From Prevotella nigrescens (GTDB taxonomy: Bacteria > Bacteroidota > Bacteroidia > Bacteroidales > Bacteroidaceae): a stretch of 64,000 bases of DNA. Shown here one piece after another: positions 29,656 to 56,736 of this stretch. How positions within the stretch are numbered: the first letter of the stretch is position 1; each line of letters opens with the position of its first letter. The translations under genes and the position numbers were made by a program. The stretch spans positions 186,001 to 250,000 of the forward strand of contig NZ_CP133464.1 in NCBI RefSeq assembly GCF_031191185.1. The letters run 5' to 3'. The notes beneath the pieces were generated by a model. That model saw nothing but the letters and a program-made list of their open reading frames with translations, had not been told where the DNA came from and did no database searches.

Positions 29656-30179
29656 CGCCACCTGCTGTATGGAATATCTATACAGATGAATGTGCATGTC
29701 ATGTCTGCCACTTTCTCTGTTATAAATATGCTGCATTTCCGAATAACGATACGTTTTAATAAATTGGAAATTATTTTCTTATTTCGCTTATTTGTTGCTT
29801 GCACGATGTGAAAGAGTGCTACGCATCATATATTTTTCTGTTCCTGCTCTCGGTGTGAGGGCATCGCCAACATGCCCGATGTATGCCTGCAGTGCGCAAG
29901 GTGATTTTTTTGTTGCATTGGCAGCCTATTCTTAGGAACTGTAAGGGTCTGTTCTGTGCCACCTGCAGGCTTGCAATGCCCCATCTATTTCGCACAACAG
30001 TTTCTTACCTGAATATAAACGATTTGTTTCCTCTATGTGTTCGGTACGATGAAACACTCCCCCACTGCATTACGATTGCCAAAAAATGTTTCACTCTTTC
30101 CATATCCTTTCTATTACTTTTCTTATTTCCAGTCTGCCCTTTCTCCTCCAGCCTGATTGCAAAAGGCACAAAAATGCAC

Positions 30180-30889
30180 AATAAAGAAATACATACGTTT
30201 GTATAAAGATAAAGCCAAAGAAACATAAATATATAAAAACAAATAAACAAAAAGATAAATTTAGCGTTGCGAATAAAAATATATTGTAACGTTATATCTA
30301 TTGAAGTTGAAATATAAATATATAAAAACAAAGAAACAAAACAGTATTAATATAAAATAAGATTTCTACTTTTGTATTGTATTTTATAAAAAACTAAAAA
30401 CGTTTTGTTATTTAAATGTTTTGTCGTAAATTTGTAATTGTATGATGAATACCATTGCTATGTTTTTATATAAATATATCTTTGGTTGTCTGAATATGCT
30501 TTCTTGCGTTGCACTTGCGATACTGGCGTTCGCAAAAAGACTTGCTAACATGCTGTGTTTCAAAATATAGAGTAAATATATATAAATATAAATACTGTGC
30601 GTTCGCCGCTTTTCTGTTTCGCTTTGGTGTATGTGTTGCGTTCTTTGAATATATGTTTGATTATGTAATAGTGTACTTCTGTAAATATATAAATATAGAT
30701 TTAGTCTTTTGTCTGGATAGGTATAATCAGATAATAACTATATCTTTAAATATGTTTATAGTGCATAATATAAGTACAAACATACTATAAAATATAAACA
30801 AACAAACACTTGTATACGTAGAAAGGTAAAGAGTTGATAATATTTAAAAGTAGTAATGTAAAGACGTATAACTATAAATATATAAAAAT
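30180..30889. other. Very AT-rich tract with recurrent AAATATATAAAAA words
   Basis: Words such as ACATAAATATATAAAAACAAA recur at about 30220, 30310, 30575, 30685 and 30870, the last directly before the ATG at 30890. Related words precede the genes at 31914, 32676 and 40283. Could be promoter, centromere-like or bent DNA; not resolved. Confidence 0.5.
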
Positions 30890-31576
30890 ATGAAGATAAA
30901 TGCATTTGAAATAACACCTCGTCGAGTTGCAATACTCGGCTGGTCGGTGTGCTTGTGTGTGGTATTCTTGTTGCTGCAGTTCTCCGAAAACTACGGACAA
31001 CATATTGATGAGCTGTCTGCCGACGGCTTCAGTGTGGCGAGTGCAGCCCCCGACGTGTCGCCCTTGTTGCGCATTTGTGGGGTGGCAGTGGCGCTTTGCT
31101 CTGTTGTTGCGTGGGAACAGCTTCGCCATGCTTTGCTCAAAGCCAACCATTACTGGCTGCAACTGATGCAGATTGTGGTGATGGTGCTCACCGTTCTCGG
31201 GGCTGCGGTTGCCATAATGCCCTCTGGTGCAACGCAAACGGCTGCCGGTGCAACGCTGTTGAGTGGTTTTGGCAAGTTCCAGATGGCGTTACCATTCTAC
31301 AACGACATGGCTATTGGAGTGGCAAGTCTGTGTTTGGGCATTGGGATAGCCCGGAAGTTTGGTGGCAGGATACGCCTTTACGGCATTGTGCTTGCCGTTC
31401 TGCCGGTGCTGTCGATGCTGGTTGGCGAGTTCTACACCTATTTATATACGAGCGTCGGCGGACTCACTTTGCCTGAGTTGGAGAACTATCGGGTTGTAAA
31501 ACTGATTGTTCAGTTGTGCATTCAGGTTGTTTTGTGGGTGTTGCTGTACAGGAGTTTCGCTTCAAACGAAGATTAG
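30890..31576 (+). CDS. Five-to-six-helix membrane protein of unknown function
   Basis: 228 residues with hydrophobic segments at about 14-32, 58-75, 92-112, 137-155, 163-182 and 205-222, and a short polar loop (33-57). No family recognised. First of four plus-strand genes ending with ParA and a DUF3408-like protein, each preceded by an AT-rich leader with the ATATATAAA word. The gene's normal base composition in contrast to its leader shows it is a real gene. Whether it works with ParA is unknown. Confidence 0.65.
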   Translation: MKINAFEITPRRVAILGWSVCLCVVFLLLQFSENYGQHIDELSADGFSVASAAPDVSPLLRICGVAVALCSVVAWEQLRHALLKANHYWLQLMQIVVMVLTVLGAAVAIMPSGATQTAAGATLLSGFGKFQMALPFYNDMAIGVASLCLGIGIARKFGGRIRLYGIVLAVLPVLSMLVGEFYTYLYTSVGGLTLPELENYRVVKLIVQLCIQVVLWVLLYRSFASNED

Positions 31577-32675: not shown

Positions 32676-33335
32676 ATGAAAAATATTAAAGTAGTATTTG
32701 CCAACCAGAAAGGTGGAGTAGGGAAGAGCACGCTGTGCATGCTGTTTGCCAATTACTTGAGCTGGAAGGGCAAACCCGTGTGTATCATCGACACCGACCT
32801 GCAGAAAACCATTCTGATGCAGCGGCAGAAAGATGTTCAGATCTACGAGGGCGAAGAGCCATACAGTGTGCAGAGCTTCGACGTAAGTGCCCCCGAGCTG
32901 ATGCAGCAGCTCATGGATTCGGCTTCAGAGGTGGAAGGCTACGTGCTGTTCGACTCTCCCGGCAACGTAAGCGAGGACGGACTGGTGCCTCTCTTCACCA
33001 ATGCCGACTACATTGTGTGCCCTTACGAGTACGAAGACAAGACGTTGGATTCCACGGGAATATTCGTTCAGGTCATCAATGCGCTCAAGGACGTAAACCC
33101 GGACATGCACGCTCAAATCTTCTTTGTGCCCAACCGGATAGACCCCCGCATCGGTACTTCCGACGAGCAGCGCATGTGGAGCGACACCAACGACATCTTC
33201 TCGCAGATTGGAAAGGTTACGCCGATGGTGAACAGCCGTGCCACGCTGAAGCGCATAAACACCTTCGAGCTGCTTGCCACGCAGCGCGAGGCGGTGAAAG
33301 GGGCATTCGAGTACATGATAAAGCGAATGAAGTAG
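32676..33335 (+). CDS. ParA family ATPase
   Basis: 219 residues. Deviant Walker A 'KGGVGKST' (12-19), Walker A' region 'CIIDTDLQKT' and Walker B 'YVLFDSPGN' define the ParA/MinD ATPase fold. There is no N-terminal helix-turn-helix, so it is the small ParA type, and no ParB is adjacent. In Bacteroidota such short ParA proteins are common in conjugative elements and plasmids beside DUF3408 proteins, as here (next gene 153 bp downstream). Roles in DNA or complex positioning are known for the family; the cargo here is unknown. Confidence 0.92.
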   Translation: MKNIKVVFANQKGGVGKSTLCMLFANYLSWKGKPVCIIDTDLQKTILMQRQKDVQIYEGEEPYSVQSFDVSAPELMQQLMDSASEVEGYVLFDSPGNVSEDGLVPLFTNADYIVCPYEYEDKTLDSTGIFVQVINALKDVNPDMHAQIFFVPNRIDPRIGTSDEQRMWSDTNDIFSQIGKVTPMVNSRATLKRINTFELLATQREAVKGAFEYMIKRMK

Positions 33336-45657: not shown

Positions 45658-47145
45658 GGTTGTTCGTGCCTCCCTGCTTCAACTCTCTCGGAGCAACACC
45701 GTTTCGGAGGCGTGGGTGTTTGGTGATTGGTTAATTATTCTTCCGTTTTCACGCAGTACTATGTGATATTCTGCAAATTTAGTTCTTTTATTTTACATTG
45801 TCAAGTGTTTTCCAATATTTTCTTGTTGTTTGTAAATTATAGCTTCAATAAGATGGTCAGACATATCATTTTTACCTGCATTAAGATACATGTTTCTGAT
45901 TAGGACGTGATGAATCGCGCCCCTACGGCTGCGAACGGGCATTCCACGCATAGCCGACATGCTGCTTTCCTCCATTTTACAGTATGCATAGACCTCTCGA
46001 GATTTCTATAATGACCTCTGCAACTTGCACAAACAAAAAGGGGACACAACCGAAGCTGCGCCCCCACACCGTTTTTTCAGTGTCAATTAAATTTAGTAAT
46101 GAAATACGCGGTGTATGTTTTTACCCGCTCTGCCGTGCTTTTTACGGCACGACATTTTCCTTCTTGTTTGTCGCTTCTGTTTCCAGACAAATGGTAAACC
46201 GTTCTTTTCTTCTTCTTCGAGAAGTATATTTTGTTGCCGAGGGCAAGTCTCTGCAAGCGTGAATTTACTTTTTTTGCTTGATGGGAACATTCTTTCCTGA
46301 TGTGGCGTGTGTTGTTTCTCGACTGTTCGGGTTAAGTTTCGATGGCATTGTACTGTACTTTCTATATGCTCTTGTTGTGGGAATTGCGCACCTGGCACAG
46401 TGCAATAAGGGCTTAAAAATCGTATGAATTAAGACAAAACTCGCTGCTTCCGCAGACAATTCGCATTCTTCTTTCTTGTCCGAAAGACAATTGCCGTGCC
46501 TGGCGGACACAGGTTCTGTGCTGCCTGCAGCAGTTTTCAACCCACCCTGCAGAGGTATTTCAACTTTTCATATTTGCCATGGCACCCTGCAATCTCTGCG
46601 TTGCATGGCTGCTTCAAGGTTTCTCATGTCCCCTCTCCGTGCTGTTCCGAGTTCCTCCGAAAAGCGTCTCCCCTGTTTAAAAAATCCCTGTCGGGCTGTG
46701 TATTCGGCAGAGACGGGGACTCCTTATATATACTAATAGATTTAACAACTCGTCTCGTCTACCTCTTACAGGTACTGCAAAGATAGAGCATTTATTTGGT
46801 ATTGTCAAATAAAAATCGTCTTTTTTTTCTACTTTTTTTACTGTGTGCCCGAACAGTATCTTGCTTTTGGTGCAACAATACCATGTATATATCATGGTGT
46901 TTTATCGACAAACAATAATTAATTATCGGAAAGAAAGAAAATTTTTCGTATTTTTCTGCTGTAATTTGTTGTTTTATAAAAAATAATACCTACTTTTGTA
47001 AACGAAAAATATACCCATATCAAACCAATACAAAATATTGTACTATCTTGAGAATATGCTTTCAGGAGCGATTAACGCTATTCTTAAATTTGCAGAATAA
47101 CCGCAAATTTTAAAGAAAACGTTTTGTTTGTTTCATAATTTTATC
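45658..47145. other. 1.5 kb intergenic region, no supported gene
   Basis: Contains the -7 box CAAATTTA (minus strand TAAATTTG, 45781-45774) with CAA 20 bp further for the gene at 44836. A minus-strand frame at 45793-45891 (protein-like 'KNDMSDHLIEAIIYKQQENIG') may be a small gene remnant. GTGATGAATCGCGCCCCTAC at 45908 resembles GATAAATCAAGCCCCTGC at 28623. Otherwise nothing recognisable. Confidence 0.45.
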
Positions 47146-47153
47146 TATTTTTG
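47123..47153 (+). promoter_or_regulatory. Promoter of the AAA ATPase/RloB unit
   Basis: TTTG (47123-47126), 19 bp, TATTTTTG (47146-47153); the ATG at 47172 is about 12 nt after the predicted start of transcription. Confidence 0.7.
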
Positions 47154-47171
47154 CAAAAATACTACGACGTT

Positions 47172-48458
47172 ATGATTATAGAATTTAGCGTAAAGAACTA
47201 TCGTTCCATAAGAGATTTGCAGACAATCAGCTTTAAAGCAACTGGCTTGAAAAGTCCTGCTGGCAGCGACATTGATGCAGATAATATTGTTAAAAGCAAT
47301 GGCGTGTCGCTCTTAAAGACGGTTGGTCTGTACGGAGCGAACGCCAGTGGCAAGTCGAACATGCTGATGGCGTTAAGTTATTTTACACGTGCAGTAAGCA
47401 CGTTGGCTACAGATTCAAGACTTATAAGACCACTTTACGACCCGTTTCTCTTCGAAACGTCCAACGAAGGTTGCTTTTTCCAAGTCGTATTATTATTGAA
47501 TGGCAAGAAGTATCGATATGGTTATGTAGTGAATAAGCTCGATAATGCATCAGGAAATGCTGATTTTAACGGTGTTAAAATAGAAAGCGAGTGGCTCTAT
47601 GGCAACATAGATAAAAACATGAAACGCCTGTTTTTGCGTGTAGGCAACGAGGTGAAGGAGAACAATCTTCCCACTTCAGAGGGAATGGTTATACCCACCA
47701 AGCTGCCCTATCCGCACACATTGTTCCTCGTTCACGCCACTGCTTTCGATGCAAAGGGTATCCCTGAGCAAATAGTTAGCTACTTAAAACGTCGTATAAT
47801 CGGCAATATTGTATATAAAGAAATGTTCAGAGGAGTTTCAATAAATGCGATAAAAGAATCAACACCATTGTTTCTTTCCTTTCTGAAACGATTCAATATG
47901 AAATACGATGACATTGAATTGATAGACGATGAAAGTTATGCTGATGTTCAGTATTTGGGCTTTCCATCGAACAAAGTGTTGTTGAAAAGAACTACTCACA
48001 ATGGCAATAATAAGACGTTGTCAATGAATCTTGAGTACAGAGAGTCGGCAGGGAATAAGAAAATCTTCGATTTGGCAGGGCTACTTCTTGTGGCATTCAT
48101 TTCGGAAGACGATCCATTCTTACTTATTATCGACGAGATAGACAGTAATTTCCACCCTTCCTTGCTCATCAAATTGATAAAAATGTTCAACGATCCTAAG
48201 ATAAATAAAAACAATTCGCAGCTGTTGTTCACCAGCCACGATACCAATTTGATGTCTCCCTCCATTATGCGTCGCGACCAATTCTACTTTGCCGAGAAGC
48301 AGGAAGATGAATCTACGCGACTCTATTCGTTAGCCGATTTGCGCGGAATACGCAACGATGCCGACTTCGCAAAGCAGTATCTTGCAGGCTATTACGGAGC
48401 TTTACCTGTGTTAAACGACTATACCGAGGCGGAGGAAAACGAGAATGGAAAACAATAA
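47172..48458 (+). CDS. AAA15-type ATPase (RloA-like), candidate defence protein
   Basis: 428 residues from the ATG at 47172, which begins the canonical 'MIIEFSVKNYRSIRDLQTISF' N-terminus of ATP-binding OLD/RloA-like proteins; a 7-residue longer start is less likely. Walker A 'GANASGKS' (55-62), ABC-like Walker B 'LLIIDEIDSNFHPSLL' and the switch 'LFTSHDTNLMS' are intact. The RloB-family gene overlaps it by 14 bp, so the two proteins are made together. By analogy with ATPase-plus-TOPRIM two-gene systems it would sense phage activity and release or activate the partner. Base composition is more AT-rich than the surrounding chromosome. Confidence 0.88.
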   Translation: MIIEFSVKNYRSIRDLQTISFKATGLKSPAGSDIDADNIVKSNGVSLLKTVGLYGANASGKSNMLMALSYFTRAVSTLATDSRLIRPLYDPFLFETSNEGCFFQVVLLLNGKKYRYGYVVNKLDNASGNADFNGVKIESEWLYGNIDKNMKRLFLRVGNEVKENNLPTSEGMVIPTKLPYPHTLFLVHATAFDAKGIPEQIVSYLKRRIIGNIVYKEMFRGVSINAIKESTPLFLSFLKRFNMKYDDIELIDDESYADVQYLGFPSNKVLLKRTTHNGNNKTLSMNLEYRESAGNKKIFDLAGLLLVAFISEDDPFLLIIDEIDSNFHPSLLIKLIKMFNDPKINKNNSQLLFTSHDTNLMSPSIMRRDQFYFAEKQEDESTRLYSLADLRGIRNDADFAKQYLAGYYGALPVLNDYTEAEENENGKQ

Positions 48459-49164
48459 ACAACCGTGGGAGCTGCGTTCGGACGACGTTCGCAAAGAAGA
48501 TAAGCTTGCTACTTTCATCATCTTTACCGAAGACAAAACGTCTGAAAGGTTATATTTCGAATCGTTTCAGACAAGTAACTTGAAAATCAATGTAGTAGAA
48601 AATCAAAAGAGTAAAATGGAAAATGTCTTCAGGGCAATAAAGTATTGCGAACAGAAGAAGGCTTTCGACAAAGGAATACATGTGTGGTGCGTGTTTGATA
48701 GAGACTTTAACGGCAATCCAGGAATACTCGATAAAGCTGAAATATCGTTTGATGAATCGCCACATACAGCCAAAAGGAATAACATAAAAGTAGCGTGGAG
48801 CAACGATAGTTTCGAGCTTTGGATACTGCTACACTATGAAGATGTAGACCCAAAAGAACCCTTACTGCGCAGTAAATACTATGAACGACTGACCGAAATT
48901 CTGAAAGCAGATACAAAAATAAATAGTGATTTTTGTGTAGCGATAGGAAATGGAACCTTTAACTATTACGACGATATTAAGAGTTTGAACCCCTTTAAAA
49001 ATTACATTTTGCCCATACTGCAAGACAAAACACGCCGGACAGCAGCAATAGAACGTGCAGAAAAATTAGAAAACCACCACACAACCCACACCGACAAGCC
49101 CCACGAAATGTGCCCATGCACCATGGTTCACCATTTAGTGAAAGAACTTTTGGATAATCAATAG
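48445..49164 (+). CDS. RloB family protein, TOPRIM-like
   Basis: 239 residues. The N-terminal half has the RloB/TOPRIM layout: 'FIIFTEDKTSERLYFESF' with an acidic E29/E34 pair and 'HVWCVFDRDFNGN' with D85 and D87 as the DxD. Further on 'WSNDSFELWILLHYEDVD' is the typical RloB signature, then a C-terminal helical part ending in a His-rich stretch. RloB proteins occur next to RloA ATPases and in restriction loci; a metal-dependent nuclease role is likely by fold but not shown. Overlaps the ATPase gene by 14 bp. Confidence 0.85.
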   Translation: MENNKQPWELRSDDVRKEDKLATFIIFTEDKTSERLYFESFQTSNLKINVVENQKSKMENVFRAIKYCEQKKAFDKGIHVWCVFDRDFNGNPGILDKAEISFDESPHTAKRNNIKVAWSNDSFELWILLHYEDVDPKEPLLRSKYYERLTEILKADTKINSDFCVAIGNGTFNYYDDIKSLNPFKNYILPILQDKTRRTAAIERAEKLENHHTTHTDKPHEMCPCTMVHHLVKELLDNQ

Positions 49165-49226
49165 TACTTTTCGGCAGAATCGGTATATATTTAATAACAA
49201 TAACGACATAATCATGAGTAGATTAA

Positions 49227-50348
49227 ATGATGAAAAAAATATTATTTTTATTACTGTTGCCAACATTGCTCAATGTTGTATATGGCTGCAAAGGCGGAGG
49301 AATACTTAATGCAAATGCAAATATGGAAAAAACGTATAATGGATATGAATTGAAGTTCATTGCATTTAAGGTGTATAACGCTGGTCTTGTTTCTGAGAAG
49401 AGCAAGGATTTATTAAATCTTTTCAAAGATATGCGTATGACTATCATCAGAGATACGCTTATAATTAACGGTGACAATAAGATCGTTTTTAGTGTTCAGC
49501 AGGCAGATTCCAAACAATTTTATAATCATCGTTATGGAATATCAAATTTCTATGCAAAGGAACTTGATAAATTGGGATATAAAGATGGTAGTAACACCAT
49601 AACCTTTTTAAAGCCTGAGGATTATGCCGGGCAAGAAACTTGGAGTCGCAACTATACAGATATGTTAGGATTGGGTGTCATTGCCGGAAAATATATTTTC
49701 TTTCCTTGCATTCTCTCCGATAATGATGAAGAGAACGCCATGCTTATCTACGAGATACCTCATGGAGTTAAGCTCTCTAACGCTGTTGATAGAAGAGGCG
49801 ATAGCAGTGATGTAGATTCAATACAAATCTTAGGAACATCATCTGAAAATTTCTTTGATGGGAAAGACATTAGCATAGATAAGTTTGGAATTGATACTAC
49901 AAAAATAATGTTTGATGAATATACCTTGCCGGGAGCAAATATAGAAAATGTAACAGATAAGGTAAAAACAATCATTATCAATGGGAAGAAGATGCCATTT
50001 AAGGACTATATAAATTCGTGTGTGAACGCAATCTTTCCGTTACCAAGCTATCAAGGATATGACATTTTTATCATATACTTTGAATATGGAGATAGTGAAT
50101 ATTGGGAAATGTGTATATCTGATAAGGGAATTATAAATGGAGATACTCAAAAAATGACAGTGCATTACACGTGGGATGATTGGGGAGATGAAAATCAAGA
50201 AAATGCAGATTATAGTAAGATTAGTTTCCAAATTTATCCGAATTATGTAATGTGCCTAAAAGGAGAAAAGCGAGAAAGCGGGAAAACAAAAGAGCATAGA
50301 AGATACTATCGCATCAATTCAAAAGGTAGCTTTGAAGAGATAAAATAA
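49227..50348 (+). CDS. Lipoprotein of unknown function next to the RloA/RloB pair
   Basis: 373 residues (a start 3 bp later is equally possible). Lipoprotein signal ending 'NVVYGC' (C21). The mature protein is AT-rich in codon use, has no recognised domain, and contains beta-strand-rich segments such as 'IIINGKKMPFKDYI' and 'YEIPHGVKLSNAV'. 62 bp downstream of RloB, same strand. May be a cargo gene in the same acquired segment rather than a part of the defence system. Confidence 0.65.
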   Translation: MMKKILFLLLLPTLLNVVYGCKGGGILNANANMEKTYNGYELKFIAFKVYNAGLVSEKSKDLLNLFKDMRMTIIRDTLIINGDNKIVFSVQQADSKQFYNHRYGISNFYAKELDKLGYKDGSNTITFLKPEDYAGQETWSRNYTDMLGLGVIAGKYIFFPCILSDNDEENAMLIYEIPHGVKLSNAVDRRGDSSDVDSIQILGTSSENFFDGKDISIDKFGIDTTKIMFDEYTLPGANIENVTDKVKTIIINGKKMPFKDYINSCVNAIFPLPSYQGYDIFIIYFEYGDSEYWEMCISDKGIINGDTQKMTVHYTWDDWGDENQENADYSKISFQIYPNYVMCLKGEKRESGKTKEHRRYYRINSKGSFEEIK

Positions 50349-50446
50349 TGTATCTTGGTGATGGGTGGTTGGTTCAACGGCTACCCACCTATACAAAATA
50401 TAATGCTACAAAAATATGTAATAACACAAATTAGGAGGAATTAATT

Positions 50447-51286
50447 ATGAAATTATTAAATATCTTATTTTATCTTTTATTCTTCTATTCATGCAGCAAT
50501 GCACAAAAATGGTATGACATAAAAGACAGCAACAACCATTCCTTTGTAGGAAATTGGGAGCAATTGACAATTACAGACAATGGAGACACCGTAATATACC
50601 ATGCTTGTTTTGATGTAGCACACAAAATAAATGTCGATACAATAAAAAAAGAACTTTTTGTGCAGTACGATATGGAAGATGTACATTATCCCATAGACAC
50701 AGTACATTTAGAAAAAGACGAGTTTATCATATCTTTTGTCAATAACATTTGCACACCATTCAGATGTAAGATAATAGATCAGAATAAAGCTTTATGGACA
50801 TATAAGTATATGGAAGATGGCGAAGTGTATCATAATTACTTTACCAATGAGAAGAGATATTTCAAAGAAATAAAGGAAAAGTACGATGACCAAGAACCAG
50901 AAGAAAGCCCCACACCTATCGTAGCCGTTCAAAATCACAAATGGTTCGGTGAATACGAATACTTCATCTCAGATACGACCGTTGTTCCCTCGCCTTTCAT
51001 AGAGTACACATTGAGCATTGCGGCTGACCAATGTGTATTCAGCGGTAATGGGCATATGACTGCCTTTGAAATCCAATGCAGTGTAAAAACAGAAACGAAA
51101 GACAAACTCTCCCTTGATTTTGTCAAATCGCTGTCGGAAGATACACTGATGCCCAATATTGACAGAAACGTTTCACCCACAGTGAATTTATATTACAGGA
51201 AAGGAAAATACTATCTGGAAAGTCCGTTTATCAGCAATACTGAAGGCAAAAAAAATGTAAAAATAGAATGTAGAAAAATAAAATAA
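50447..51286 (+). CDS. Lipoprotein of unknown function
   Basis: 279 residues with a signal peptide and lipobox 'LFFYSC' (C16). Two halves: residues 20-145 with 'FVGNWEQLTITDNGDTVIY' and residues 165-275 beginning 'HKWFGEYEYFISD' and containing 'YTLSIAADQCVFSGNGH', a pattern like small lipocalin-like Bacteroidota domains (possibly DUF5991). It follows the previous lipoprotein by 98 bp and shares its AT-rich codon use. Function unknown. Confidence 0.65.
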   Translation: MKLLNILFYLLFFYSCSNAQKWYDIKDSNNHSFVGNWEQLTITDNGDTVIYHACFDVAHKINVDTIKKELFVQYDMEDVHYPIDTVHLEKDEFIISFVNNICTPFRCKIIDQNKALWTYKYMEDGEVYHNYFTNEKRYFKEIKEKYDDQEPEESPTPIVAVQNHKWFGEYEYFISDTTVVPSPFIEYTLSIAADQCVFSGNGHMTAFEIQCSVKTETKDKLSLDFVKSLSEDTLMPNIDRNVSPTVNLYYRKGKYYLESPFISNTEGKKNVKIECRKIK

Positions 51287-51621
51287 ATCCTTGGTACTTT
51301 TAATGCTTGGCAAGGACAAAACCACATAATCTCATTGAGTATATTCCATTACAACAAGGGATAACATAAAAATACTTGTTTATAGGAAACGAGAAAACAG
51401 AAGACCGAGGGGGAAAAACTCAACTTTTCTACGCCGAAAGAAGAGTTCTTCGGGTTTTATTCTTAATTTTACATTTGCTGGTAGACTCTACGGAAGAGAG
51501 AAAATGCTGCCAACCTATACATCACTGCCCCAACATTTTTGCACAATACCTTCTGTTTGCACTCTTTTTTTTCGTACATTTGCAATCTGAAACGGATTGT
51601 TCCGACTGCCGAAACAAGCTT
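51287..51621. other. Intergenic region with tamB promoter
   Basis: A -7 box TACATTTG is at 51575-51582 with TTTG 15 bp upstream (51556-51559). The frame of tamB stays open upstream to 51376 but this part is leader. Confidence 0.5.
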
Positions 51622-54600
51622 ATGCACTTACGGAAATCGAAGAAATGGCTGGCTGCCATAGTGTTAGCACCCATTTCGTTGTTTATGTTCTTGCTCGTTC
51701 TTCTTTACTTGCCACCTGTTCAGAACTGGATTGTAAAGAGGGTGGCAGACTATGCTTCGAAGAAAACGGGAATGGAAATATCGGTCGGACACGTTTCGCT
51801 CAGCTTCCCACTCGACCTGAAATTGGAACAGGTAATGGCACTGCGACCCGACGACAGCATTCCGCAAAGGCGCGATACCGTGGCAGATGTAAAGGAGCTT
51901 GTGGTTGATGTGCAACTGATGCCGCTATTTAAAAGTAGGGTAGAGATAGACCAACTTACCTTCAAGGGGCTGAAGGCAAACACCATGAACTATATCGGCG
52001 ACTTGCAGATACGGGGCAACTTGGAACGGTTGCACGTTGTTTCGCACGGCATAGACCTTGAAAATTCTACTGCGTTGCTCAACAATGCCGACGTGCAGGG
52101 GGGCTTTCTTGACATCGCCCTTAACGATACAATGCCGAAAGACACCACTAAAAAGAAAACCATTTGGAAGATAAACATCGACAAACTGAACCTTTATCGC
52201 ACCAATTTCCGACTGCACATGCCGGGCGATTCGATGGTGATAGATGCCAATTTCCACAAGGCAGCAGCACAAAATACCTCCATTGACCTATATAATAAGG
52301 TGTACCGAGTGGACGGAATAGCTTGGCAGGGTGGGTCGTTGACATACGACAAGACCTTTGTTCCACGCATGCGGCACGGTTTCGATGCTGCCCACATTGC
52401 GCTGAACAAGCTGAACATGGGGGTAGATTCGCTTTCGTACGACTCTACCGGAGTTTCCGTCAATGTCAGGACAGCCAATTTCACAGAACAAAGTGGACTG
52501 ATAGTGAACGACTTGCGCACACGCTTTCGCCTCGATAGCACCCATTTCTATCTGCAACCGTTCTATCTGCGCATGCCCCAAACCGAACTGAAGGGTGGCG
52601 TGGCAATGGCTTTGAATGCCTTTAGTGCAATAAATCCCGGACAACTTGCCGTCTCGCTGAATGGTTTCGTGCGCATCAACGACCTGCAGCCACTGCTGTC
52701 GGGCAGCGTTCCAACGAGGTTCTTGCACGCCATTCCGACTGAACGGATAGACGTGAACGGCTCGCTGCGAGGCAATATGCGCAACTTAATCTTGCAAAAG
52801 CTACGCATCGGCATGCCGCAACACTTCGCCTTGAAGGTGAATGGGCGGATATCGAACCTGCAAAGTCCGAAAAACCTGTCGGCAAACCTTGCCTTAGGCG
52901 GCAGTTTGCGCGACATTCGCTTTGTTAAACGCCTGTTGCCCAAGAGCATAGGCAATACGATTAAAATTCCGACAGGCATCGACTTCAATGCGAAAGTCAG
53001 GGCACAAGGAACGCAATACCATGCCGACATGCTGCTGTACGAGGGCGGAGGCAATGTAGCCGTAAAGGCAGACTTCAACAAGAGCAGCCAGACCTACAAC
53101 GTAACAGCCCGTGCTGTAAACCTCCAGCTGCAACACTTCGTTGCCAAAACGGGGCTGTACCCCTTCACGGGCATGGTTTCGGTTTACGGACGAGGGCTCG
53201 ACGTGCTCAGTCCGAAGTCATCGTTGCGCCTGAAAGCAAACATAACGCAGTTCCGTTTCGGCAATTATGTGCTCAACGGCATTAACGGCGACATCGCGAA
53301 ACGAGGCGAGACAACCACTGCACGCATCGTCAGCACGAACCCAATGCTGGGCGGCGACTTCACATACAGCGGCAAACTGTCGGCTAAAAACGTGGACGGA
53401 CACTTGCGAGGGTGGTTCCGTCGTGTCGATTTAAGGCAACTTGGCGTAATGAAAGACCCCTACGTGGTGTCTGCATGGGTAGATGTTGATGTGCGCTCCG
53501 ACCTGAAAAACCACCACTACATAAGCGGACCGCTGCACCAACTCGTGCTTACAAGCGTGCATAAGCATGGCGAACAGCACCTTGCAGCAGGCAATTTAGA
53601 CATTACGGCAAGCATAAACGGAGCCAAGACTGCCGCCCACGTCAATGGAAAGTTAGACTATGCCAACCTGAAAGGCTTGAGACTGATGGACAAACCCTAC
53701 GTTCTGGGCACCGAAGCCAACCTTGCCTTCCGCTCCGACCGACCGAAACACTACACCGTGGAGGGCTATCTCGGCAAACTGAAGCTCGACGAACATCGTG
53801 GCGGAAAGGCTGTTTCACTCTTCAATGGCGACCTAAACGTACACGCAAGCATGGCCGGGAAACTGCTGAATGGCAGTGCCAACGGTATTGTACGCCATGC
53901 CGACCTCTACCAATTAGGCTTTGTAGACAAGCCTTTCGCCTCTAACTGTGCACTGAACATAGAGTTTGACACCGACATGGCAGCCAAACTGATGGTGCGT
54001 GGAATGCTTGGCAACCTGCAAGTGCAAGCCGACAACAAACAGTTTAGCCCCGGCGACGTTACCATAGACATGCTGAGCCGTGCCGATACCACCCACGCCG
54101 TGATTGAAGGAGGCGATTTTGCACTGAACACCGACTGGCATGGCAGCTATCAGCACGTGCTGAAGGCAGGCAAGCGCATAGCCACCGACTTGCAGAAGCA
54201 GATAGACAATAAACGAATAGACCAGACTTCGCTGCAGAAATTGCTCCCCATGGGACGCCTGAAACTTGTCAGTGGCGAAGGCAACCTGTTCAGCAAACTG
54301 CTCGAACAGCAGGGTTATGTGTTCAAGACTGCCAACATAGACCTCACCTCATCACCCTCAAAGGGACTCAACGGCAACATTGTTGTAGACTCGTTGGTGT
54401 ACAACGACATGCACGCCGACTCGCTGATAGTGGACCTTACCACCAACGACACCGGACTGAACTACGACCTGCAGGTGCTGAACAACGCCAAAAACGACTA
54501 TCCCTACAAGGGTTACGTGCACGGCTCGTTCTTCGACCGCGGGCTCAACACCTCCATCTTGATTACCGACATGGCTGATAAAACCGCCCTTGCACTATCT

Positions 54601-56736
54601 GCACAGGCTGCAATGCAAGGGCAGGGCATCAATCTTTCGCTTACTTCTGCACAGGCAATATTGGGCTACAAGACATTCAATGTAGAGCCAGACAACTATT
54701 TATATATAGGCAGGAACAAACGACTGAAAGCCGAAATGCGACTGCTTGCCGACGACGAGGCAGGCCTACACCTATACAGCGACGACACCGATTCTACCTC
54801 GTTGCAAAACTTCACCCTCTCCATCAACAAGTTCGAACTTAGTCAGCTCATGGCAGTGCTGCCCTTTGCACCACGCATTTCGGGCGAACTCAATGGCGAC
54901 TATCACGTCATTCAAACCACGTCAGACCTTACTGTGTCCAGCGACATGGCAATAAAGAACATGGTGTACGAACTGAACGGCATGGGCGATGTGGGGGCAG
55001 AGTTCGTCTATATGCCTAAAGGCGATGGCACACACTATGTAGATGGCACCCTGACAAGGAACGACAGAGAGATAGGAAGGCTCTCCGGCGTGTACGACAG
55101 CAAGGGCAAGGGCAGTCTCGACGCGGAGTTTACGCTCGAAAAATTCCCCCTTAGCTACATCAACGGTTTCGTTCCCGACCGCATCATAGGACTGCACGGA
55201 ACAGGCGAAGGTACGCTTGCCATGCAAGGACCGCTAAAAAATCTCGACATAAACGGAGAGATATACCTCGACTCTTCGTATGTTTTCAGCGAACCATACG
55301 GTGTCAAGCTGAACTTCGCAAACGACCCCGTGCTCATCAATCACAGCCGTGTGGAGTTCGAAAACTTCGAGGTTTTCGCTTCCAACAAGGCTCCGCTCGA
55401 CATCTCCGGCTACTTAGATTTCTCCAATTTCGACCGTATGAACACCGACTTACGCATGCGGGCGCGCAACTTCCAGGTGATTAATGCAAAGGAGAACATG
55501 CGCTCTGAAGTGTTCGGAAAAGCATTTGTAAACTTCGACGGAGATCTGCAGGGACCGCTGTCGTCGCTCCAGTTAGATGGAAAAGTGGACGTATTGGGCA
55601 ATACCGACATAACCTACGTGGTGCGCGATGCACAGCTTGCCAACGACAACGAGCTGGAAAACCTCGTTACTTTCACCAATCTTAACGACACGACCAGGGA
55701 CGTCGTGAAGCGACCGGACATTCAAGGACTGGGCATGAAGCTGCGTGTCGAGGTGGACAACGAGGCACACATCGTCTGCGCACTCGACCCGGAGCGTTCC
55801 AACTATATAGATATTGTGGGCGGAGGAACCCTGAACATGGAGTACGACCCCACCAACGGACCACGCCTGAGAGGTCGTTACACCATAAGCGACGGTCAGA
55901 TGAAGTACTCGCTGCCCATCATTCCGCTGCGCACTTTCCACATAAAGGAAGGCAGCTATGTAGAGTTTACGGGCGACCCAACCACGCCGACGCTCAGCAT
56001 TACGGCTACCGAATGCGTGCGGACGAGTGTGTCTGACGGGACGGGGAACGGCAGAATGGTAGACTTCGATGCCGGTGTCCGACTGTCCAAACGCTTCCCC
56101 AATCCCGGTGTAGAGTTCATCATACAGGCTCCGGAAGACCAGGACATGCAGGGGAAACTAAGTTCCAAGAGTGTGGAAGAACGCTCCAAACTTGCCGTTA
56201 CCATGCTTGCTTCGGGCATGTATTTCGACGGTTCCAACAATTCAACCGCCAATACAGCCATGAACAGTGCCCTCATGGGCTTCCTGCAAAGTCAGGTAAA
56301 CTCCATAACGGGGCGTGCCCTGACCTCCATGGGTGTGGACCTTACAGCCAACATGGAGAGCACTGCCGACGCATCGGGCAGTCTTCACACCGACTATACT
56401 TTCAAATTCTCCAAACGATTGTGGGACAACCGTCTCCGTATAATCATGGGCGGACGCGTCTCCACAGGCTCCCAGGTGTCGGAACAGAACGGTGCCTTCT
56501 TCGATAATCTGTCGTTGGAATATCGCCTGAACCGCCAGGAGACACAGTATCTGAAGCTTTATTACGAGCGGGAAGCCTACGACTGGCTCGAAGGAAACCA
56601 GGGAGAGTTTGGCGTCGGCTTCATGTGGCGACGCAAGTTGCAGCATTTTAAGGACATCTTCCGCTTTAAAAGCAAGAAAGAACAGCCACCACAGCGCGAC
56701 AGCCTAATTAATTTTGTAAATGGAAAGAAACAGTAG
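51622..56736 (+). CDS. TamB/AsmA-like translocation and assembly protein
   Basis: 1704 residues from the ATG at 51622, which is directly followed by a basic stretch and one N-terminal membrane helix ('WLAAIVLAPISLFMFLLVLL'); the longer frame from 51376 lacks any start signal and crosses the promoter. The long middle is made of repeated amphipathic beta-strands (Asp/Asn-rich turns) forming the lipid-conducting groove; the last 400 residues are the TamB domain ('VNIDG'-like repeats, 'DYTFKFSKRLWDNRLRIIMGG'). It spans the periplasm and works with TamL, encoded next and overlapping by 17 bp. Function: outer-membrane lipid and protein homeostasis. Confidence 0.92.
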   Translation: MHLRKSKKWLAAIVLAPISLFMFLLVLLYLPPVQNWIVKRVADYASKKTGMEISVGHVSLSFPLDLKLEQVMALRPDDSIPQRRDTVADVKELVVDVQLMPLFKSRVEIDQLTFKGLKANTMNYIGDLQIRGNLERLHVVSHGIDLENSTALLNNADVQGGFLDIALNDTMPKDTTKKKTIWKINIDKLNLYRTNFRLHMPGDSMVIDANFHKAAAQNTSIDLYNKVYRVDGIAWQGGSLTYDKTFVPRMRHGFDAAHIALNKLNMGVDSLSYDSTGVSVNVRTANFTEQSGLIVNDLRTRFRLDSTHFYLQPFYLRMPQTELKGGVAMALNAFSAINPGQLAVSLNGFVRINDLQPLLSGSVPTRFLHAIPTERIDVNGSLRGNMRNLILQKLRIGMPQHFALKVNGRISNLQSPKNLSANLALGGSLRDIRFVKRLLPKSIGNTIKIPTGIDFNAKVRAQGTQYHADMLLYEGGGNVAVKADFNKSSQTYNVTARAVNLQLQHFVAKTGLYPFTGMVSVYGRGLDVLSPKSSLRLKANITQFRFGNYVLNGINGDIAKRGETTTARIVSTNPMLGGDFTYSGKLSAKNVDGHLRGWFRRVDLRQLGVMKDPYVVSAWVDVDVRSDLKNHHYISGPLHQLVLTSVHKHGEQHLAAGNLDITASINGAKTAAHVNGKLDYANLKGLRLMDKPYVLGTEANLAFRSDRPKHYTVEGYLGKLKLDEHRGGKAVSLFNGDLNVHASMAGKLLNGSANGIVRHADLYQLGFVDKPFASNCALNIEFDTDMAAKLMVRGMLGNLQVQADNKQFSPGDVTIDMLSRADTTHAVIEGGDFALNTDWHGSYQHVLKAGKRIATDLQKQIDNKRIDQTSLQKLLPMGRLKLVSGEGNLFSKLLEQQGYVFKTANIDLTSSPSKGLNGNIVVDSLVYNDMHADSLIVDLTTNDTGLNYDLQVLNNAKNDYPYKGYVHGSFFDRGLNTSILITDMADKTALALSAQAAMQGQGINLSLTSAQAILGYKTFNVEPDNYLYIGRNKRLKAEMRLLADDEAGLHLYSDDTDSTSLQNFTLSINKFELSQLMAVLPFAPRISGELNGDYHVIQTTSDLTVSSDMAIKNMVYELNGMGDVGAEFVYMPKGDGTHYVDGTLTRNDREIGRLSGVYDSKGKGSLDAEFTLEKFPLSYINGFVPDRIIGLHGTGEGTLAMQGPLKNLDINGEIYLDSSYVFSEPYGVKLNFANDPVLINHSRVEFENFEVFASNKAPLDISGYLDFSNFDRMNTDLRMRARNFQVINAKENMRSEVFGKAFVNFDGDLQGPLSSLQLDGKVDVLGNTDITYVVRDAQLANDNELENLVTFTNLNDTTRDVVKRPDIQGLGMKLRVEVDNEAHIVCALDPERSNYIDIVGGGTLNMEYDPTNGPRLRGRYTISDGQMKYSLPIIPLRTFHIKEGSYVEFTGDPTTPTLSITATECVRTSVSDGTGNGRMVDFDAGVRLSKRFPNPGVEFIIQAPEDQDMQGKLSSKSVEERSKLAVTMLASGMYFDGSNNSTANTAMNSALMGFLQSQVNSITGRALTSMGVDLTANMESTADASGSLHTDYTFKFSKRLWDNRLRIIMGGRVSTGSQVSEQNGAFFDNLSLEYRLNRQETQYLKLYYEREAYDWLEGNQGEFGVGFMWRRKLQHFKDIFRFKSKKEQPPQRDSLINFVNGKKQ

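Follow-up and report, generated by a model that had tools for sequence, protein, structure and literature searches.

A predicted AbiL abortive-infection gene pair before tamB in Prevotella nigrescens

The two adjacent genes found at positions 47,172 to 49,164 of the window (the whole 64-kb stretch of Prevotella nigrescens DNA that was analysed) almost certainly form, judging by their sequences, an AbiL module, a system that already has a name. The first gene, abiLi, encodes an ABC/AAA ATPase and the second, abiLii, a protein of the RloB family. We assign the pair to AbiL because the proteins match the PADLOC AbiLi and AbiLii profiles and Pfam RloB, and because the pairing is kept elsewhere: an AbiLi-type ATPase, an AbiLii/RloB partner and adjacent, co-inherited genes with the ATPase first were all found. 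As in the AbiL system first described in Lactococcus lactis, the genes are adjacent, the ATPase comes first and both profiles are matched; the pair differs in its Bacteroidota host and chromosomal setting, the likeness to the lactococcal system being one of profiles and the anti-phage role being predicted. With less assurance, we consider it reasonably probable that the pair works as a chromosomal abortive-infection module of the AbiL type, in which AbiLi would release a nuclease upon infection, placed at a site of defence exchange and accompanied by two passenger lipoprotein genes.

The gene abiLi (47,172 to 48,458; 428 residues, AAA_21/AAA_15 according to Pfam) and abiLii (48,445 to 49,164; 239 residues, RloB family according to Pfam and AbiLii according to PADLOC, a putative TOPRIM-type nuclease toxin) lie on the forward strand, like all features given below. 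They overlap by 14 bp (48,445 to 48,458) and both frames are intact, just as a preliminary description of this DNA had read them. That description also placed a consensus promoter ahead of the pair, and by pattern search we located a match to TTTG-N19-TAnnTTTG, the Bacteroidota-type promoter consensus, at 47,123 to 47,153, leaving 18 bases before the ATG of abiLi; the window holds 16 matches to this pattern against a mean of 2.5 in shuffles. The AT-richness of the segment, likewise reported earlier, is real and comes in two steps, the GC content being 40.9% in abiLi and 39.0% in abiLii and falling to 33.6% and 34.5% in the two lipoprotein genes that follow. The 1.5-kb gap upstream of abiLi is AT-rich too (39.7% GC), and the flanks stand at 52-56% (tamB/tamA) and 48-53% (four upstream genes). 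The codons had been called unlike those of the flanks. This is clear to the right, where third-position GC is 0.64-0.69 in tamB/tamA, but not to the left, where the upstream thioredoxin gene has the same value as abiLi (0.47). Repeats flanking the insert were limited to chance-like families of 16-29 nt, and no tRNA or Rfam family was detected in the 64-kb window at default cut-offs.

Genome comparison identified tamB (51,625 to 56,736), which lies outside the system, as the conserved right flank of a variable site. In G084, which ranks among the two closest genomes in a comparison of tamB, the same place is occupied by type II restriction-modification, with a match to a type II restriction enzyme and D12 methyltransferases. 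Because restriction-modification is found in this one relative where AbiL sits here, the spot before tamB is probably a defence-exchange site, as far as sequence comparison can tell. No empty site before tamB was found: G084 has other cargo, and the P. falsenii contigs are interrupted after abiLii, before tamB is reached. In a PADLOC comparison of 64 proteins encoded next to AbiL at 22 other loci, at least two matched type I restriction profiles and other flanking proteins matched single defence profiles among the matches listed; these are raw counts from the best 25 of 137 families at E <= 1e-10, without a background rate, and no enrichment is claimed.

AbiLi matched the PADLOC AbiLi profile PDLC02335 over residues 1-423 (E 7.7e-80, 266 bits) and, weakly, the other AbiLi profile PDLC02336 (E 4.5e-7). 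The Walker A and Walker B motifs pointed out in the preliminary description held up in the alignment, which places Walker A (GANASGKS, residues 55-62) at 47,334 to 47,357, the ABC signature region (ESAGNK, residues 291-296) at 48,042 to 48,059 and Walker B (D321-E322) at 48,132 to 48,137. G55, N57, G60, K61, S292, G294, D321 and E322 were invariant in 50/50 rows, and S62 and H356 were kept in 49. In a fold search, the AbiLi model (pLDDT 83) resembled the ATPases of Rad50, Septu/retron PtuA, OLD and GajA, although the TM-scores, normalised by query length, were modest (0.34-0.49). When the AbiLi profile was compared with solved structures, retron and Septu PtuA came out best (E 6.9e-8 and 7e-7), and SMC and others also matched. 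The likeness to OLD/Gabija GajA and to Septu/retron PtuA lies in the predicted ATPase fold, and for PtuA also in sequence profile. According to the available part of PMC10440598, GajA differs in carrying ATPase and TOPRIM in a single chain, and Septu in having an HNH partner.

AbiLii matched Pfam RloB (PF13707, E 2.2e-34, above cut-off) and PADLOC PDLC02337 (E 5.1e-25, the best stretch being profile positions 25-87 of 170). The residues singled out earlier were nearly invariant: D85 and D87 occur in 51/51 rows, while E29 is missing from one row and E34 from three, in an alignment that includes the query, the query's own copy and one probable duplicate. Moreover, E124, W126 and H130, within ELWILLH (48,814 to 48,834), were kept in all 51 rows and are invariant in further alignments, which also reproduced the near-invariance of the four acidic residues and of the ATPase motifs. 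In TOPRIM domains, a glutamate follows strand 1 and a DxD motif follows strand 3. In the AbiLii model (pLDDT 87), E29 comes right behind predicted strand 1 (E29 to E34, 48,529 to 48,546) and D85-R86-D87 (48,697 to 48,705) closes predicted strand 3, so that AbiLii appears to fit this layout. A Foldseek comparison of the model with solved structures gave no match at E <= 0.001, and no obvious TOPRIM nuclease stood among the 50 matches listed. Against solved structures, the single sequence had no relative at E <= 10, and the profile reached only E 0.045 at best, mostly with calmodulins. AbiLii is placed in the RloB family, and RloB is related to OLD_TOPRIM by HHpred, in the portion of PMC10440598 at hand.

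We propose that AbiLi, as an ABC ATPase, would assemble into a complex, sense a phage product and restrain AbiLii. Upon infection, AbiLii would be released as a TOPRIM-type nuclease that requires metal and whose target would most likely be RNA, and its activity would halt growth before the phage matures. Such a release controlled by AbiLi, drawn by analogy from published AbiL and PARIS work, is plausible but falls somewhat short of probable, and RNA as the substrate is less assured still. In PARIS, AriB is sequestered by AriA and cleaves tRNA-Lys on release, as excerpted from PMC11455837. In its most specific form, in which AbiLii would be an RNA (tRNA/rRNA) nuclease of its own TOPRIM-like subfamily with ExWxxxH, held by AbiLi and released by phage, and the tamB spot an exchange site in this Prevotella branch, the proposal is tentative. 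AbiLii could alternatively be a DNA nuclease like the OLD and Gabija enzymes, which cut DNA (PMC12409363, in part), and the AbiLi model does resemble OLD and GajA ATPases among others; we regard this as unlikely, though it is the most serious competitor, the effector being small and separate as in PARIS, where it is tRNA that AriB cuts. The labelling data pointing to translation in the accessible text of PMC10440598 concern another AAA-paired toxin and therefore do not decide between RNA and DNA.

Co-inheritance of ATPase and RloB, raised earlier as a check, was borne out. An AbiLi-type ATPase lies directly upstream of RloB on the same strand at 103 of 108 related loci, and four of the five loci without it sit at contig ends. 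On viral contigs, the ATPase is present at 36 of 39 RloB loci, and AbiLii was found in annotated plasmids (6 records) and phages (1 record). The P. nigrescens genome itself also holds an RloB remnant, with no adjoining ATPase. The pair might be a plain toxin-antitoxin or maintenance pair with no anti-phage role: the C. algidicarnis TOPRIM_OLD(D44):AAA(D29) pair, alike by description in having an ATPase and a RloB-homologous toxin, is among the validated pairs in which the AAA protein neutralises the toxin (PMC10440598, in the part seen). In the available text of PMC3985639, AbiLii from F. nucleatum is toxic in E. coli, which favours the release proposed above. Its AbiLi did not neutralise it, however, and AbiLii from L. 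lactis is not toxic there; both findings weigh against that proposal, and AbiLi does not serve as an antitoxin in every case. The retention of the ATPase on viral contigs and the restriction-modification genes at the same site in G084 argue against a mere maintenance role, which we hold to be improbable. Moreover, AbiL was reportedly described, going by the title of Deng 1999, as a phage abortive-infection system.

The preliminary description had taken the pair for a PARIS-like system based on RloB. What stands is an antiphage-type pair of an ABC ATPase and a separate TOPRIM-like protein, a two-gene logic shared with PARIS (AriA/AriB); what falls is the affiliation, the system being already named AbiL. 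The AriA profile does match the ATPase (82 bits, E 2.2e-23), but far below the 266 bits of AbiLi, and PARIS membership was rejected. Solved AriA chains reached only E 0.012 with the AbiLi profile, behind PtuA, and AriA is absent from the 50 fold matches listed for the AbiLi model. AriB we take to be a DUF4435 protein; no DUF4435 was found among the Pfam matches of AbiLii, and hhalign against 18 DUF4435 domains gave a probability of 0.3%, obtained without a positive control. A PARIS variant in which RloB replaces AriB beside an AriA-like ATPase, triggered by phage anti-restriction proteins, is therefore distinctly improbable, even with the restriction-modification genes that occupy this place in a related genome.

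Downstream of the AbiL pair, inspection by eye shows a lipobox-like start in each of the two lipoproteins. Lipoprotein 1 (49,227 to 50,348) belongs to a separately mobile block (49,224 to 50,381) that stands alone in G147, another Prevotella, with 94% DNA identity over 1158 bp, between insertion-like 472-bp repeats that are 94% alike. Lipoprotein 2 (50,447 to 51,286; C-terminal DUF5991, Pfam E 9.9e-21) has only partial relatives, all away from AbiL. Neither was matched at the other AbiL loci that were fetched, and 96 of 108 loci extend 1.2 kb or more beyond RloB, so the recurrence with RloA and RloB that had been looked to as a check did not appear. Of the two roles suggested earlier, passengers or an outer-membrane part, the second was rejected, and the lipoproteins are most likely independently acquired passengers unrelated to the AbiL pair. 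A four-gene defence system with lipoproteins at the envelope, e.g. as phage sensors or receptor blockers, is very improbable given this lack of recurrence, the lone copy in G147 and the further fall in GC, although all genes share one strand, only 62 bp without a promoter match of the tested type separate abiLii from lipoprotein 1, and all four proteins are 100% identical and in the same order in another P. nigrescens record.

Since AbiL is already named and the lipoproteins are most likely passengers, the find is largely ordinary. It settles the candidate as a member of a known family and provides a Prevotella AbiL pair that is intact and full-length, with its conserved residues mapped. Neither the trigger nor the substrate of any AbiL was found stated in the parts of the AbiL literature at hand (no statement on AbiL was found in PMC10568477, and AbiL is absent as a whole word from PMC13096335), which makes E29, E34, D85, D87, E124, W126, H130 and Y174 useful targets. 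The presence before tamB of AbiL in this species and of restriction-modification in a relative suggests where more defence genes may be found. If the proposal holds in its most specific form, RNase release of the PARIS type would be a general design that has arisen with different effectors.

Reading of the window sequence confirmed four intact genes at the coordinates assigned to them in the preliminary description. On the forward strand, the ATPase gene abiLi (47172-48458) overlaps by 14 bp the RloB-family gene abiLii (48445-49164), and the genes of lipoprotein 1 (49227-50348) and lipoprotein 2 (50447-51286) follow. A Bacteroidota-type promoter match is found on the same strand at 47123-47153, separated by 18 bases from the start codon of abiLi. 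The proposal that these genes form an AT-rich insert was retained only in part: GC content is indeed lower than in tamB and tamA (52-56%), but it falls in two steps, 39-41% for the AbiL pair and about 34% for the lipoprotein genes, instead of being uniform. At third codon positions, abiLi has the same GC content as the upstream thioredoxin gene. Elsewhere in the window, the lowest of the 1-kb steps is 30001-31000 (28.6% GC), and a ParA-like gene, recognized by eye, is located about 1.7 kb past it, at 32676.

To identify the pair, both proteins were compared with profile collections. AbiLi matched Pfam AAA_21 and AAA_15 and, in PADLOC, the AbiLi profile (E 7.7e-80, 266 bits), the runner-up being AriA with 82 bits. 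AbiLii matched Pfam RloB (E 2.2e-34), and its sole PADLOC match was the AbiLii profile (E 5.1e-25), the best stretch covering profile positions 25-87 of 170. The NCBIfam search gave no match above cut-offs. A PARIS-like pair, as first suggested, is disfavored by the gap between the AbiLi and AriA scores and by the comparison of AbiLii with 18 DUF4435 domains, which gave a profile probability of 0.3% in a run made without positive control. The same genome also encodes a DUF4435 protein (E 4e-55; L180, G000:C2:440881-441615), of a family that we take to be the AriB type. Prevotella nigrescens FDAARGOS_1486 encodes all four proteins at 100% identity, and the four genes and tamB/tamA follow the same order there, on a record of 568 kb that is listed as a plasmid (NZ_CP082843.1); as it carries tamA and tamB, this replicon is possibly a second chromosome.

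Within the genus, 17 of 150 genomes (own included) contained relatives of RloB; other searches gave 4 loci in the genome collection, 39 on viral contigs and, with the Pfam model, 119 positive genomes among 393 of the order. At the order level, the best-scoring 30 loci returned and 19 lower-ranked, hand-picked ones were taken. An AbiLi-type ATPase gene was located directly upstream of RloB on the same strand at 103 of 108 loci, all selected via RloB and not via the ATPase, and not all independent since some viral contigs are near-copies; the expected co-inheritance of the pair was borne out. The two genes overlap at 57 loci, an upper number as each gene was taken to begin at the earliest start codon in its frame. 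Of the five exceptions, four (L090, L143, L162, L165) are at the end of a contig, and in the fifth (L101) a transposase-like ORF (170-1339, by eye) directly precedes an uninterrupted RloB gene. The 108 loci leave out the window's own copy (L109), L007, a presumed duplicate of P. falsenii L003 (12827 bases each, equal identities), and L112. The latter (L112:4518-4928, G000:C2:1678532-1678966) is a 137-aa RloB remnant of the own genome matching only Pfam positions 62-195, with no ATPase neighbour and a dnaN-like gene nearby (by eye); counted as a miss, it gives 103/109.

Next, conserved residues were sought in alignments of AbiLii (51 rows, each longer than 170 aa) and AbiLi (50 rows). In AbiLii, W81, D85, D87, E124, W126, H130, A201 and L231 were invariant, E29 and Y174 were present in 50 rows and E34 in 48. 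In more distant sets, D85, E124, W126, H130, Y174 and A201 were still invariant, and E29, E34 and D87 were invariant or conserved in at least 90%. The invariant residues of AbiLi (G55, N57, G60, K61, S292, G294, D321 and E322) all remained so in a more distant set. The predicted AbiLi model (mean pLDDT 83) gave 76 Foldseek matches at E <= 0.001, and the 50 listed, whose query-length TM-scores span 0.34-0.49, are heads of Rad50 and other SMC-type proteins, PtuA of Septu and of retrons, OLD and GajA. In the AbiLii model (mean pLDDT 87), E29 follows strand 1 and D85xD87 ends strand 3, the layout of TOPRIM domains, which have a glutamate after strand 1 and DxD after strand 3. Since this model had no Foldseek match at E <= 0.001, the TOPRIM assignment rests on the motif, on the order of the structural elements in the prediction, and on the HHpred relation of RloB to OLD_TOPRIM stated in the accessible part of PMC10440598.

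Of the two readings put forward for the lipoproteins, passengers or an outer-membrane part, the former is the supported one. Among 161 fetched loci, some of them not AbiL loci, matches were found only in L026/L056, L028/L057 and L029/L058, which were fetched for the lipoproteins. No other AbiL locus had one, and at 96 of the 108 loci the sequence continues for 1.2 kb or more downstream of RloB. Lipoprotein 1 occurs in 2 of 150 genus genomes (own and G147); a sample of 301 genomes at family level likewise gave two (own and G712, the latter over residues 186-373 at 61%). In G147 (L056:8019-10144), block 49224-50381 is found at 94% DNA identity between two 472-bp repeats, which are 94% alike, each contain a 114-aa ORF and were taken by eye as insertion-sequence remnants. 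Neither AbiLi nor AbiLii was detected by tblastn in the 19 kb around it; the AbiLi-like ATPases of G147 and G712 are on other contigs, except for one weak G147 match that is about 27 kb off. Lipoprotein 2 (DUF5991) has only partial relatives, in G137 and G147.

The tamB flank (51625-56736) is best shared with two genomes, G084 and G017, each at 76% DNA identity. In G084, a related Prevotella, identity begins at window position 51565, and the cargo before tamB (L079:5880-9331) is a type II restriction-modification system, a single case in one relative. It comprises a 475-aa protein, without Pfam match, that hits a profile for type II restriction enzymes (E 1.9e-71), a D12 methyltransferase of 322 aa (E 1.3e-132) and another methyltransferase, split between two ORFs (106 and 228 aa). 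In G017, taken as P. falsenii, identity to the window's genes is 75% for abiLi and 77% for abiLii; one contig stops just past abiLii and another starts just ahead of tamB, which fits AbiL lying at the same place without proving it. The fetched stretches of both genomes lacked the genes that stand to the left of the pair in the window.

Deng 1999 is said to be the founding AbiL paper. Among the matches listed by literature searches on RloB, RloA and AbiL, for which most subscription journals lie outside the search, this locus was absent, and a search of the same reach for AbiL in Prevotella found none. In the accessible text of PMC3985639, F. nucleatum AbiLii halts E. coli growth and is not neutralised by F. 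nucleatum AbiLi; L. lactis AbiLii causes no E. coli growth arrest. The available part of PMC10440598 describes AbiL as working via the toxic effector AbiLii and lists RloB-type and other toxins as neutralised by AAA partners. For PARIS, the portions available of PMC11455837 and PMC12409363 describe AriB as sequestered by an AriA ring and, once released, cutting tRNA-Lys. By analogy with these published systems, AbiLi would restrain AbiLii, a putative nuclease, and then release it; the substrate and the trigger are what we infer. As AbiLii matches its profile only in part and the TM-scores are no more than modest, our confidence in both of the following readings is slightly lowered. Altogether, the pair is very likely a chromosomal AbiL-type module, with restraint and release of a nuclease as its proposed mechanism, which is a little less likely than not; the module probably sits at a defence-exchange site before tamB, and the two lipoproteins are most likely passengers acquired independently. 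More tentatively, and with the odds rather against it, AbiLii may be an RNA nuclease of its own TOPRIM-like subfamily, held by AbiLi and released upon phage infection, with the place before tamB serving as a site of defence exchange throughout this branch of Prevotella.
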